Assembly: GCA_021371795.1 (NCBI GenBank)
Contig: JAJFVK010000006.1
Coordinates: 87,452-151,451, forward strand
Source: Planctomycetaceae bacterium
Lineage (GTDB): Bacteria; Planctomycetota; Phycisphaerae; Sedimentisphaerales; UBA12454
DNA: 64,000 nt
Direction of reading: 5' to 3'
Under the pieces are notes generated by a model that saw only the letters and a program-made list of their open reading frames with translations, did not search any database and was not told the origin of the DNA. Position numbers and translations under genes: made by a program. Shown piece by piece: positions 1,526 to 38,103 of this stretch; the stretch's first letter is position 1, and each line of letters starts with the position of its first letter.

Positions 1526-1693
1526 TCAGCGGCATCTGTGTCGGAGTGTAACGCAGACCCCAGAATCTTCAGGAATTTTATTCCTTGAAATTAAAATTCA
1601 GATGGGGTAATCAGCGTTAAAAAAGGGGTCTTGAATTGCAACGTCTTTGTATTGGATACGTTAGCGATTTCGTTTTAAAAAAGCGCAAGCAGC

Positions 1694-1975
1694 ATTTTCA
1701 GTTTTTGCGTATTTTGTCGTTTTTATGTGATTTTACTTCATTTTACTGACAATTTACTGCCGATTTGTGTAAAAGCGTGTTATTCAGTGAGCGTTTTTTT
1801 ACGAACTTGCGCTGAACAATCTTAACGTGCGCAAAATAGGCGATAAATTCCTGCGCAAAAATAAAAAATCGGCGTCTTTTTGAGGTTTTTTGATTTAATT
1901 TCGCGCAATTCAGACTTTTTGACAGTGTTTTTTGAACTGAAAAACGTATCCACAATTTTTAAAAACGGCAATAAT
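1694..1975. other. AT-rich spacer with helically phased T-tracts and GCGCA boxes
   Basis: Runs of 3-5 T centred near 1696, 1704, 1713, 1722, 1732, 1742, 1754 and 1765 recur every 9.8 bp on average, close to one helical turn. Several GCGCA boxes follow, including AATTCCTGCGCA at 1846-1857, which recurs exactly at 37340-37351 in another phased spacer. Phased A/T tracts are known to bend DNA. The biological role here is unknown. A 70-codon minus-strand reading frame in this stretch looks like chance. Confidence 0.6.
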
Positions 1976-2532: not shown

Positions 2533-3477
2533 TTACTGGGAAACTGTAACTGCCGATGCGTCTTCTTCGTCTTCCTCTAATTTGCTTTGGGTGGGCTTGC
2601 GGGCTATAATATGGTCGTAAATCCACTTTGTAATGCCGCTCAACGCAAAACTCCAAAATACAATCACCAAAGCACACTCAAAATACCAGACCACTATAAC
2701 GATAATAACCACAGCTTTAATCAAATACCCAAAAGGCTTGCTGCCTTTAAGATACTGATTCACAACGTGCGGATAGCGAATTCTGCTGACCATCATTGTG
2801 CCGGCCAAAAGGGTCGCGAATGGCAGGATATATACCAAAATGGTATGGCAAATCTGCAAATACGGCCGCCAGTTTTCTGCGATTTTCATTGTCATTTCCT
2901 GATTGAGAATAACAAGACTTGCAACCGCACCGGCAGCGGCAGGGCTGGGCAATCCTAAAAAACTCATATGGTGAGATTCGTCGTCTTCGTTTTCGACGTT
3001 GAACCTTGCAAGGCGAATAGCGGCGCAACTGAAATATATCGCGGCCACAAGCAGCAGAAAACGATATATAAAAATATCGATAACAGGATTAAACGATATA
3101 CTTGTTTCGACAACCCGCAGCATAAGAAACGCAGGTGCGATGCCGAAGCTGATTACATCGCAGAGGCTGTCCAACTGACCGCCGAAACTGCTTGTGCTAT
3201 GGCTCAAACGTGCCAGATGCCCGTCGAGCATATCAGCAATCATCGCGAAGAAAATCATATAGCCGGCCATTTTCAAAAATGGAAACTCCGGATGATAAAT
3301 GTCAAGGCCGGAGATGTGGCCGGTTGATGCTTTCGCTGCGAAGATAATCGCCGCAAAACCGCACGCTCCATTAATCAGCGTTACCAGCGATGGCAAAACG
3401 GTAATGTATTTGAGTCGCCTTTTGCTTTTGCGAATATTTTTGTGCGTATGTTCCGAATTATTATTTTGTTCTGTCAT
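2533..3477 (-). CDS. pssA: CDP-diacylglycerol--serine O-phosphatidyltransferase
   Basis: This enzyme makes phosphatidylserine from CDP-diacylglycerol and L-serine at the inner membrane. The CDP-alcohol phosphotransferase motif DGx2ARx8Gx3Dx3D is visible at residues about 84-106 (DGHLAR, then GGQLDSLCD). About eight hydrophobic segments follow, and the C-terminus is a charged, acidic tail. At 314 residues it is longer than minimal family members because of this tail and a basic N-terminus. Its start overlaps the end of psd by 17 bp, so the two consecutive steps to phosphatidylethanolamine are translationally coupled, with psd upstream. Confidence 0.92.
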   Translation of the reverse strand: MTEQNNNSEHTHKNIRKSKRRLKYITVLPSLVTLINGACGFAAIIFAAKASTGHISGLDIYHPEFPFLKMAGYMIFFAMIADMLDGHLARLSHSTSSFGGQLDSLCDVISFGIAPAFLMLRVVETSISFNPVIDIFIYRFLLLVAAIYFSCAAIRLARFNVENEDDESHHMSFLGLPSPAAAGAVASLVILNQEMTMKIAENWRPYLQICHTILVYILPFATLLAGTMMVSRIRYPHVVNQYLKGSKPFGYLIKAVVIIVIVVWYFECALVIVFWSFALSGITKWIYDHIIARKPTQSKLEEDEEDASAVTVSQ

Positions 3478-4171
3478 ACTTAGCCAATATCGTCAAACCT
3501 GCCCGGACTTTGTCGCCTTTTTTCACGAGAAATTTTGCGGTACTTTGAGCCGGCAGGTAAAGTTCCGTTCTTGAACCAAATTTTATCATTCCAAATATCT
3601 GTCCGCCAGCAAATTCCTGACCCTTTTGTGCGGCGCAAACAATTCTCTTTGCGATAGCACCGCTTATCTGTCTGACGTAAATTTTTTCTTTCGGTTCATT
3701 CAGGCGGGTCATCGTTAAGTTATTGCTCTCGTTGAGTTTACCGCAATTAGCGTCCATCGCGTTTATAAAAGCGCCTTTGCGGTAATTTATGTTCTCTATT
3801 CTAACCGCACAGGGCGTTCTGTTCAAATGCACATTAAAAATGCTCAAAAATATGCCGACCCTAATCGCAGGACCGCCCATAACGTCCGGCTCATCAACAA
3901 CTTCCACTTCGGTTATGGTGCCGTCGGCAGGGGAGAGAATTAAATCGTCGCCGAGCGGAATTTCACGCACAGGGTCGCGGAAAAACGACAGCATCCATAC
4001 CAGAACTATCGCGAAAACAATCTCCAGAAACCAGAACAGGCCGACGCTTAAAAACGCCGTGAACATCGACAGCAGCATTGCTAATGCGCATAAGCCCGGA
4101 TAGATGACCACTTGCGGCAAACCGTATTTCGTAATTGGTATTCTCATAAAAATCCTTAAATGCGCGAGCAT
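3461..4171 (-). CDS. psd: phosphatidylserine decarboxylase proenzyme
   Basis: It decarboxylates phosphatidylserine to phosphatidylethanolamine at the membrane. At 236 residues it belongs to the short Psd class, which is cleaved at a Gly-Ser bond to make the pyruvoyl group; the site is FGSRTE near residue 204, where the Ser would become the pyruvate. Two hydrophobic helices occupy residues about 25-65. Other family blocks are LSPADGTI, FLSIFNVHLNR and GAFINA. A second possible start is Met9 (MRIPITKYG). It precedes and overlaps pssA, forming a phospholipid operon. Confidence 0.92.
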   Translation of the reverse strand: MLAHLRIFMRIPITKYGLPQVVIYPGLCALAMLLSMFTAFLSVGLFWFLEIVFAIVLVWMLSFFRDPVREIPLGDDLILSPADGTITEVEVVDEPDVMGGPAIRVGIFLSIFNVHLNRTPCAVRIENINYRKGAFINAMDANCGKLNESNNLTMTRLNEPKEKIYVRQISGAIAKRIVCAAQKGQEFAGGQIFGMIKFGSRTELYLPAQSTAKFLVKKGDKVRAGLTILAKYDRTK

Positions 4172-4255: not shown

Positions 4256-4425
4256 AAAAAAAAACGCTTAAAAACAGTCTAAAAACCTTAAAAAACACAT
4301 CAAAAGTGCCTCAAAACACCTCAAAAACCGTTAAAAACACCTCAAATCGCTCATTTTTTTAGTCAGTTTTGACCCAAATCGACACTTTTTGACACAAAAA
4401 CGTAAGTAAAACACACAAAAAAGAA
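4256..4425. other. array of about 16 helically phased A/T tracts (predicted curved DNA)
   Basis: Tracts of 3-9 A or T are centred near 4260, 4272, 4283, 4292, 4303, 4314, 4325, 4335, 4345, 4357, 4368, 4377, 4388, 4398, 4409 and 4419. The mean period is 10.6 bp. The first nine are all A on this strand, with units like CAAAAcacct. The array sits in the 640-bp gap between the divergent psd and the exoprotein gene at 4815. The rest of the gap holds a stretch with TTTAGGGTATAG and a dispersed-repeat fragment (CCGCGGATTCCACAGATGAC, about 4634-4653), but no gene. Confidence 0.75.
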
Positions 4426-4814
4426 ATAAATGAGCAGTGAAATGAAGTGAATTAACCTGAAATCGTCTAAAAAATTAAGGACTATGGGTGTCCATAAAAA
4501 AATGTGCAAGTTTTAGCGTAAAGGGTTTAGGGTATAGAGGACAGGGTATAGTAATAACTCCATCCATCAATTTTATGTGGGTATTATACCATAAAACATC
4601 TTGTTTGTCAAGAAAATTACACGAAAAATTTAACCGCGGATTCCACAGATGACACTGATATCCGCCTGCGGCGTACAAGTTTTTTTTCTTGATTATTTGG
4701 GTAAAATAGGTATGATTATAGGTACTTTGTTGACTCATTGAGTGCGAGGAGATGTTTGTAGGCACTCCTTTGCAGTTTATGTTTTCGAGCAAAATGTTTT
4801 TCAAAAGGTGGAAG

Positions 4815-7016
4815 ATGAAGAGATTCACAGCAGTAATATTGGCGGGGGTTATTTTTACAGCAATTGTTTGTGTGTCTTCTGCAAAGGCAGAAACTATCAC
4901 AATCGGCACAGGCGCTTATTCGTGGGAATATCCATTAAATACGAGTTATTATGATGCCCGCACACAGACAATTTATCTTGCCGCTGAAATCGGCTGCGAA
5001 AAAACTCTGAATTCGCTTGCCCTCGATGTTACGACAATACCGGGAGTGGTGATGAATAATTTCACAATAAGGATGAAACATACGAGCCGTTCCGCATACA
5101 GCAGTCTGAAGGCGTGGGAGTCAACGGGTTGGACAGTCGTTTATCAGTCGAACCAGACTGTTTCTACAACAGGCTGGACGACATTCATATTCAGTACGCC
5201 ATTTTATTATGACGGCACGCAAAACCTGATGGTTGATATATCTTTTAATAATAGTTCAGGTCCATATTTAGGCAAGGGCTACTGTCGATATTCAACTCCG
5301 GGCGGTACACGTTCGATATATTATGGCGCGGATAACGACTATGGAGATCCATTAACATGGTCAGGCTACACTTCACCAATACCAAGCAGTACTACCAAGA
5401 TTCCGAACATACGGCTTGACTATGCACCTATGGTAACCGTGCCAAATGTAGTTGGTATGACACGAACGGCGGCAGAATCTGCTATTACATCAGCAGGTCT
5501 TGCCGTTGCCATATCATCGGGATTCAGCGATACAGTACCCGCAGGATATGTTATAAGCCAAGAACCAGTGGCAGACACTTCTGTCGCATCAGGAACATCT
5601 GTAAATATAGTGGTTTCATTGGGTATTAGTATCACTGTTCCCAATGTAGTTGGTCTGGAGCAATCGGCGGCGGAATCCGCCATTACATCAGCAGGTCTTA
5701 CCGTTGCCGTATCGCCGGGATTCAGCGATACAGTACTCGCAGGATATGTTATAAGTCAAAATCCGGCAGCGGGTGCTTCTGTTGCATCGGGAATATCTGT
5801 AAATATAGTGGTTTCATTTGGTACAGCAGGAAGCTACGATTACAGCGGCGGAAGCGGGACAACAGAAGACCCATACAAAATCGCAAATGCAATTGACCTC
5901 CTGGCTTTAGCGGCATACGCTAACGACTATAGCAGGGCTTTCATTCTTGTAAATGATATCAATCTGGCGGGATTTGTTTTTTCTAAAGCTGTTATTGCGC
6001 CTGATATAAATTCTTCTACCACCGGTTTTCAGGGAACTGCCTTTACTGGTGTTTTTGATGGCAATGGCCATTCAATTATTTCACTTAAGATAGATACCGG
6101 CGGAGTAAGCAATAATTATCTTGGCCTGTTCGGAAAACTTGATTCCGGCGGTATCGTAACAAACCTGGGCACAGAAGATGTGAACATTATTGGCGGCGCC
6201 AGTTCTTATATCGGCGTGCTGTGTGGATATAATTCTTCCGGCAGCATCGCGAACTGTTATTCAACAGGCAATGTAAGCGGAACAGAGTATGTCGGCGGGC
6301 TGTGTGGATATAATAACAGCGGCAGCATCAGCAACTGTTATTTGACCGGCACTGTAAGCGGAACAAATCGGGTTGGCGGGCTGTGCGGAACTAATTATCA
6401 CGGCAGCATCACCAACTGTTATTCTACAGGCAATGTGAGCGGAAAAGGGGCTGTCGGTGGGCTGTGCGGAGAGCATTATTCCGGCAGCAGCACCAACTGT
6501 TATTCGACAGGCAATGTAAGTGGAACAAATTCTGTCGGCGGGCTGTGCGGATATAATTCTTCCGGCAGCATCGCGAACTGTTATTCGACAGGCAATGTGA
6601 GCGGAAGCGGTGATTATATCGGGGGGCTGTGCGGATGGAATTATTCTGGCAGTAGCATTAGCGGTAGTTATTTTCTTAATACGGCAGGGCCGAATAATGG
6701 ATATGGTACGCCGCTGACAGATGCGCAGATGAAACAGCGGGCAAGTTTTGTCGGTTGGGATTTTGTAGGTGAAACTGTGAATGGGTCGAATGATGTTTGG
6801 AGAATGTGTATTAACGAAGTTAATTATCCGGGGTTGAGTTGGACATATTCATCGGGCGGAGATTTTGATTGTCCGGATGGCGTTGATATTTATGATTTGG
6901 CTTTCTTGAGCAGTCAGTGGTTATTTGAAGGCGAGTTTATCGCTGATATTGCGGGCGGTGATGATATTGTTGATTTCCTCGACTTCGCAGTATTGGCTGA
7001 AAACTGGATGGAGTGA
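4815..7016 (+). CDS. secreted protein with two PASTA domains, GLUG repeats and dockerin-type C-terminus
   Basis: The start is placed at ATG 4815 because AGGTGGA lies just upstream and a clean signal peptide follows (MKRFTAV..., ending AKA). The open frame extends 21 codons further up without a good start. The mature protein is about 710 residues. It has an N-terminal beta-rich region; two PASTA-like domains at residues about 206-336 (VPNVVGM and VPNVVGL, each with AESAITSAGL); a GLUG region at about 470-612 with six repeats like GGLCGYNSSGSI-NCYSTGNVSG; and a Trp-ended dockerin-type module in the last 50 residues. PASTA domains are best known in kinases and penicillin-binding proteins that sense peptidoglycan, and GLUG repeats in surface adhesins. 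An adhesive surface role is inferred. Confidence 0.8.
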   Translation: MKRFTAVILAGVIFTAIVCVSSAKAETITIGTGAYSWEYPLNTSYYDARTQTIYLAAEIGCEKTLNSLALDVTTIPGVVMNNFTIRMKHTSRSAYSSLKAWESTGWTVVYQSNQTVSTTGWTTFIFSTPFYYDGTQNLMVDISFNNSSGPYLGKGYCRYSTPGGTRSIYYGADNDYGDPLTWSGYTSPIPSSTTKIPNIRLDYAPMVTVPNVVGMTRTAAESAITSAGLAVAISSGFSDTVPAGYVISQEPVADTSVASGTSVNIVVSLGISITVPNVVGLEQSAAESAITSAGLTVAVSPGFSDTVLAGYVISQNPAAGASVASGISVNIVVSFGTAGSYDYSGGSGTTEDPYKIANAIDLLALAAYANDYSRAFILVNDINLAGFVFSKAVIAPDINSSTTGFQGTAFTGVFDGNGHSIISLKIDTGGVSNNYLGLFGKLDSGGIVTNLGTEDVNIIGGASSYIGVLCGYNSSGSIANCYSTGNVSGTEYVGGLCGYNNSGSISNCYLTGTVSGTNRVGGLCGTNYHGSITNCYSTGNVSGKGAVGGLCGEHYSGSSTNCYSTGNVSGTNSVGGLCGYNSSGSIANCYSTGNVSGSGDYIGGLCGWNYSGSSISGSYFLNTAGPNNGYGTPLTDAQMKQRASFVGWDFVGETVNGSNDVWRMCINEVNYPGLSWTYSSGGDFDCPDGVDIYDLAFLSSQWLFEGEFIADIAGGDDIVDFLDFAVLAENWME

Positions 7017-36849: not shown

Positions 36850-37076
36850 CAGAGTCCGTTTAGCTCCTTCCGTTCATCAGAGCCCGGAGCGTTAGCGATG
36901 GGTAGTTTTTAGTCATAGTCGTTTTTATAAATCAATTTATCTCTGAATTTCATCACTCTTCAGAAACAAATCAAACCTCAAATCCTCATGAATATATAAA
37001 ATGTTCACGCGGCATTCCAAAAATTCAAAATTTTCGACCCTATACCCTACTTTACGCTCCACGCTGAACGCTGTTG

Positions 37077-37351
37077 TTTTTTACGTTTTTCTGTGAATTT
37101 CTGTCGATTCTACGTTGATTTACTGCGATTCACTGTGTTTTATGGTGATTTAGTTACGCAAAATGGCTGATTTTCGAAGTTTTGCCTCTCAAAATCCGCG
37201 TTTTTCACCGCTTTTGAACGGTTTTAGGGGTGTTTTTAAGCATTTTTGACTAAAAAACACTGAAAAAACGCTCTTTGATGCGAGTATTTCGCGCAGAAAA
37301 TTCACAAATTGCGCAGGTTTTCGTAAAACTGCGCATGGTAATTCCTGCGCA
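37077..37351. other. phased A/T-tract array with GCGCA boxes
   Basis: T runs centred near 37079, 37088, 37099, 37108, 37120, 37129, 37139 and 37150 (mean 10.1 bp) are followed by tracts at 37172, 37181, 37192, 37203, 37213, 37223, 37235, 37245, 37254 and 37265 (mean 10.3 bp). Then come several GCGCA boxes, including AATTCCTGCGCA at 37340-37351. The 730-bp gap 36850-37579 also has an AGAGCCCGG repeat at its left end and no credible gene. Confidence 0.75.
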
Positions 37352-37579: not shown

Positions 37580-38103
37580 ATGATTAAAGGTTTTTTAATT
37601 GATATGGACGGCGTAATCTACCGCGGTGAGCAGCTCATTGACGGTGCGGATTTATTCATCAAACAACTTGTCGAACGGGAATATCCGTTTATGTTCCTTA
37701 CTAATAATAGTCAGCGGACACGGCGCGATGTCGCGACGAATCTTGACCCGAATTGTCCTGTGCCTAATGGCTCGTTGCGGCCGGGCTGCGGAGCGATTGT
37801 CGCAATGCTGGAGACGGCGACAGGGCGGAAGCTTTTAGTGTTGGCAAGCCGAGTCCTATAATGATGCGTGCGGCGAGAAAAGAACTGGGAATTGACGCTG
37901 CAGCGACGACGATGATTGGCGATACTATGGAAACGGATATTCTCGGCGGCCTGAATATGGGGTATCGAACGGTTCTTGTGCTGTCGGGCGGAACGAAGCT
38001 TAGTGATTTAAGCAACTATGCTTACCGGCCGGATGTCATAATTGACTCGGTAAAAGACTTAATAGAGAAAGATAGTCCGTTAGTGTTTGAGGCGTTAAAA
38101 TAA
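37580..38103 (+). pseudogene. NagD-type HAD hydrolase, internally deleted and frameshifted
   Basis: The 5' part (93 codons) begins MIKGFLIDMDGVIYRG (motif I) and MFLTNNSQRTRRDVAT (motif II). It then jumps to LDPNCPVPNGSLRPGCGAIVAMLETATGRK, which in NagD-type enzymes lies about 110 residues later, so most of the cap domain is missing. A frame break near 37842 follows; in the next frame the sequence continues GKPSPIMMRAARKELG and GDTMETDILGGLNMG (motifs III and IV) to the end. One extra G before GCAAGCCG would restore the frame. Both halves are well conserved otherwise, so the decay is recent. The intact family dephosphorylates sugar or nucleotide phosphates. Confidence 0.85.

Follow-up and report, generated by a model that had tools for sequence, protein, structure and literature searches.

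Why should the spacer between psd and a divergently oriented surface-protein gene carry a long series of A/T tracts set one helical turn apart? In the 64-kb stretch of planctomycete DNA that we analysed as a whole (hereafter the window), 16 runs of at least three A or T lie within positions 4256-4422, with centres from 4260 to 4419.5 and a mean spacing of 10.63 bp, and the first nine of the 16 tracts are A-runs on the plus strand, in agreement with the first-pass annotation of 4256-4425. The power at 10.6 bp over 4256-4425 was 12.7, compared with a mean of 1.26 (sd 0.71, maximum 5.7) for dinucleotide shuffles, and as none of 5,000 shuffles matched it (p < 1/5000), the claimed periodicity withstood the shuffled control. 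This is the highest periodicity score anywhere in the window, and places of power ≥6 numbered three in the window, three in the 393-kb contig C19 and zero in locally shuffled DNA. With its in-phase tracts the array falls under the definition of a curved A-tract cluster (in-phase tracts over ~100 bp or more). The phased tracts run on beyond the core that was noticed first, to ~4481, and the unit also takes in a promoter block (Table 1). An origin from tandem repeats was rejected, since TRF reported only weak units of 10, 11 and 21 bp (scores 40-80, 67-74% matches) and the phase is kept across strand switches. A coding function was likewise dismissed, both for the window copy, where the sole listed spacer ORF (4475-4909, minus strand) leaves the array core uncovered, and for the further copies described below, which fall in spacers according to the genes called around each of them.

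Table 1 Coordinates of the arrays and neighbouring features in the window.
Feature	Position	Strand	Remarks
Third, divergent array	1690..1940	+	79% over 47 bp to type I consensus; GCGC motifs
psd, phosphatidylserine decarboxylase, downstream of the window copy	3461..4171	-	PF02666, E 1.6e-39
Type I phased A/T-tract array	4256..4481	-	Five further homologous copies of type I
Variable stretch, promoter block to array	4482..4567	-	Differs among copies in the type I alignment
Conserved promoter block	4568..4611	-	-35 TTGACA 4611-4606, 17-bp spacer, -10 TATAAT 4588-4583; sigma-70, 12/12 consensus
PASTA/GLUG-repeat surface-type protein, divergent neighbour	4752..7016	+	PF03793, PF07581
Second phased array, mostly different sequence	37060..37290	+	Period 10.4, R 0.91; upstream of ORF starting near 37581

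A simple tract-bend model predicts a bend of about 185 degrees over 125 bp for the window array. Our shape and periodicity scans covered one complete contig (C19), the window and the stretches around the copies, and all five of the strongest bends that the tract model found in 457 kb coincide with such arrays (window positions 37137 and 4299; C19 positions 71290, 130181 and 212174). The ranking was less exclusive with the Bolshoy dinucleotide model, for which the parameters were entered by hand and under which sites in C19 with no relation to the arrays bend about as strongly. The array at 37060-37290 is the second-best periodicity place in the window; we also observed that its tracts are phased even more strongly than those of the array beside psd.

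A search across the genome (G000; 2.85 Mb, 28 contigs, 98% complete) revealed that the arrangement first noticed beside psd is not private to that gene. Used as a query, the array retrieved homologous arrays on six other contigs, and a composite consensus matched 21 stretches. We distinguish a type I with six copies (the window, C14, C21, C5, C20 and C19), in which the strand carrying the promoter is T-rich, as is the minus-strand reading of 4256..4481, and a type II of ~490 bp, in which the phased tracts are accompanied by TGCGCA motifs and a ATAAGTCTTTATTTT end. Type II comprises at least 21 copies, five of them interrupted by insertion sequences; the alignment used below holds the 16 uninterrupted copies, and six further pieces, which represent five elements or more, break off at insertion sequences. 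Together with further arrays on C2, C6 and C19, whose similarity to both types is slight or absent, the family amounts to about 30 elements, and the mean identity of the diverged copies is about 70%. The spacers that they occupy may be convergent, divergent or tandem, and no orientation is favoured. Insulation between divergent genes, one of the roles originally suggested for the array, does not fit the presence of the same element in convergent and tandem spacers. A role linked to genes was rejected because copy orientations are mixed, and one oriented by replication because, judged by eye, the orientation switches within several contigs without a consistent strand bias.

Such a dispersed set of diverged copies permits the question of what has been conserved between them. 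We re-placed the substitutions of each copy at random on the same base, relative to a consensus that was derived from the same, mutually related copies. For type I, this led to expected bends of 99-138 degrees, compared with 164-192 degrees in the real copies (z 2.8-4.4, six of six), and for type II, z was positive in all 16 copies with a mean of 1.9 under the tract model; under the Bolshoy model, the conservation of the bend was weaker (mean z 1.4 and 1.3). Tracts of type I were lost at seven of 12 off-phase sites and at seven of 114 in-phase sites (Fisher p 2.5e-5), and nearly all in-phase sites were already occupied, which left little room to score gained tracts. Runs were exchanged between A and T in place more often than expected (10 versus 2.3 in type I, 53 versus 18.5 in type II), counts that are not independent events, as related copies share swaps by descent, and runs were lost less often than under the null (14 versus 31 and 118 versus 227, respectively). 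The copies differ in length by one 11-bp and one 32-bp step, i.e., one and three helical turns, and the aligned cores contain at least 520 substitutions versus 10 gap intervals in type II and at least 159 versus six in type I, given here as raw counts. When arrays of this genome were picked by the runs of one strand, the runs of the opposite strand shared the lattice (R 0.81 and 0.56); the phasing of type II is less coherent overall (R 0.25-0.44). The conserved bend, the retention of in-phase tracts and the A-to-T and T-to-A swaps point to selection on shape rather than on sequence. The initial proposals of strong curvature and of selection for it are thus supported, in terms of predicted bend, by the tract model, by bend retention and by the tract-loss tests.

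With moderate confidence, we therefore regard the window copy as a member of a dispersed, intergenic, intrinsically curved DNA family that is kept for its shape. We favour a structural role in the chromosome because the copies are located exclusively in spacers, are indifferent to gene direction and conserve their tract lattice, and our best guess is that they would serve to organise or anchor the supercoiled chromosome. A bent segment may favour the tip of a supercoiled loop, pinning the plectoneme there, and/or may be bound by a nucleoid-associated protein that reads the minor grooves of A-tracts, in which case each copy would help to position one supercoiled chromosomal loop. Pinning or protein anchoring is proposed because curvature over ~70 bp pins plectonemes at their tips in vitro (PMC6301789) and A-tract periodicity is stronger in genomes with DNA-bridging nucleoid proteins (PMC3940949). 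More speculatively, transcription from the type I promoter would enter the bend and might modulate supercoiling locally.

The main rival holds that the copies belong to a repeat family, either mobile (MITE-like) or propagated by gene conversion, whose AT-richness and curvature are incidental, which persists because its spacers are harmless, and whose shape serves no function in the chromosome. We consider this rather unlikely. It would account for homologous copies that are dispersed in one genome while a sequence search of 40 relatives gave matches in four, all of them short and weak, and for the insertion events, at least five in number and involving three insertion sequences, that have hit type II copies. 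It would also agree with the situation at psd, where none of the seven relatives with readable upstream DNA has an array (best tract-bend 61-84, compared with 236 here). The psd genes of the relatives are 54-78% identical to that of the window, a distance too large for their spacers to be aligned; the nearest named relative by psd is a Planctomycetes MAG, GWF2_42_9. The expectation of an array at the same place in sister genomes thus failed in all seven, whereas separate arrays do exist in several relatives; the position is therefore not conserved, which does not refute an element that is dispersed in its own genome. Against a mobile repeat, however, stand the lack of terminal inverted repeats or sharp ends (judged by eye, the alignments of 16 type II and six type I copies fade at both ends), the conservation of lattice and predicted bend beyond random substitution, and the arrays of the relatives, which have the same period in different words.

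The latter became apparent when a pattern of five T tracts was searched at 10.5-bp and at 13.5-bp spacing, with overlapping matches counted. The 10.5-bp spacing prevailed in the present genome (G000; 255 versus 120) and in the relatives G005 (259/85), G007 (347/126), G011 (326/75) and G004 (402/258); G001 gave 153/145, and G009, G010 and G012 had a small excess only. G011 contains seven places scoring ≥140 in 320 kb, mostly of unrelated sequence, compared with one or two in run-shuffled controls, and the arrays of G004 and G005 are built from other words, e.g., CGCTTTTT and CACTTTT. A test for a lattice shared by both strands failed at the loci of G004, G005 and G007 and was weak in G011 (p 0.04). 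Arrays among the relatives are thus patchy, and their wording differs with the lineage, which may reflect either convergence or the fast turnover of an ancestral family.

Curvature alone does not account for the conserved promoter block of type I or for the TGCGCA motifs of type II. In the window block, the -10 element lies inside the dyad GGTATAATACC, which is followed by CCCACATAAAATTG, and the direction is into the array. The type I consensus of this block reads TTGAYW-17-TATAAT-ACCCACATAAAATTG; a variable stretch separates it from CCTTAATTTTTTAGACGATTTC and the array that follows. A conserved promoter that matches the consensus perfectly and faces both the array and psd would suit regulatory DNA, i.e., either a curve or UP-like element that lies upstream and assists the downstream gene (psd in the window) at its promoter, or a proU-like downstream element bound by a silencer. 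The co-directional downstream gene in four of the six type I copies and the frequent occurrence of curvature upstream of bacterial promoters (PMC6301789, PMC4060949) are in line with this explanation. The copies, however, lack the upstream, gene-oriented placement that it requires: over all copies about half of the downstream genes are opposite in direction, six copies lie between convergent genes, and psd is retained in relatives without any array, and we judge this explanation less probable again than a mobile repeat. A transcribed non-coding RNA or a termination signal, with RNA made from the promoter through the T-rich array, is the least probable of the three, for although each of the seven matches to the promoter block in the whole genome is followed by a co-oriented array (by inspection), the stretch behind the promoter varies between copies, the predicted fold is no better than that of shuffles (z 0.23), no Rfam match was found at the locus beside psd, and the A/T run swaps would alter the RNA and keep the bend. 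A similar promoter block is also present on the type II copies of C18 and C24. As a separate observation, the dyad around the -10 box of the window block (4568-4611) is near-perfect (GGTAT-A-ATACC) and operator-like.

The curved family in the reading that we prefer, kept for its shape, shares features with several known systems. The dispersed intergenic repeats REP/BIME, ERIC and MITEs likewise consist of numerous short copies that are homologous and keep to spacers; what identifies them is a palindrome or terminal inverted repeats, whereas the copies here lack such ends and conserve the helical lattice of their A/T tracts. The downstream regulatory element of the proU/bgl type is curved DNA bound by H-NS, and there, as in type I, a promoter fires into AT-rich curved DNA, but here the copies are many and have no dedicated downstream gene. 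The periodic An/Tn clusters of C. elegans also consist of helically phased A/T runs across non-homologous sequences; these clusters are eukaryotic, mainly intronic and tied to germline expression, and nothing points to a common origin. The A-tract clusters of Tolstorukov et al. 2005, as described in later papers (PMC3940949, PMC2843746), are likewise helix-phased short A/T runs with a predicted bend and a proposed role in nucleoid packaging, but occur singly and widely, within genes as well as in spacers, whereas the family here is homologous, dispersed and restricted to spacers, has a promoter block and conserves its lattice between copies. The plectoneme-pinning sites of Kim et al. 2018 (PMC6301789) have in common with the present elements a strong predicted curvature over >70 bp, but cluster just upstream of transcription starts, whereas the elements here ignore gene direction.

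If the shape-based reading is true, bacterial chromosomes would contain dedicated structural elements that are defined by shape and not by sequence. A wider version, which we offer only tentatively, is that this planctomycete lineage possesses genome-wide, shape-coded chromosome organisers, in which the lattice would be selected while the sequence turns over, including by swaps between A and T, so that each species has families of its own, and in which the type I promoter would make the bend topologically active. The arrays are discrete, countable elements with comparable relatives and thereby offer an evolutionary test of selection on DNA shape itself; they also supply defined fragments for supercoil-pinning or protein-binding tests.

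Several minor observations concern the elements themselves. At the contig ends of C7, C10, C11, C12, C24 and C25 (L103-L108), type II elements contain the ends of three different insertion sequences, and C25 and C10 appear to be the two halves of one interrupted copy. At least five of the roughly ten insertions found fall in elements that make up about 0.4% of the genome, and the arrays seem to be hot spots for insertion and points at which the assembly breaks. Recurrent palindromic TGCGCA/TTGCGC motifs adjoin the A-tracts of type II and, by their sequence, are possible candidates for protein-binding sites. Degenerate, word-like spacer repeats (CTCTGTGTCCTCTGTG, GGCTACTGGCTACTGACTAC, CCCTATACCCTA and AATCCGCGGTT) occur at or inside elements (L037, L045, L103 and window positions 4530-4560), and in G007 repeats of this kind (CGCAGATTTTCACGGATTTT) recur with a period of ~10 bp themselves and grade into the arrays. 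Finally, the 32-bp insert of type II (TCGAAGC...GATCCCGCAAAGCGGGACAA), which contains a stem-loop and has a length of three helical turns, is present at the same site in L113, L115 and L120.
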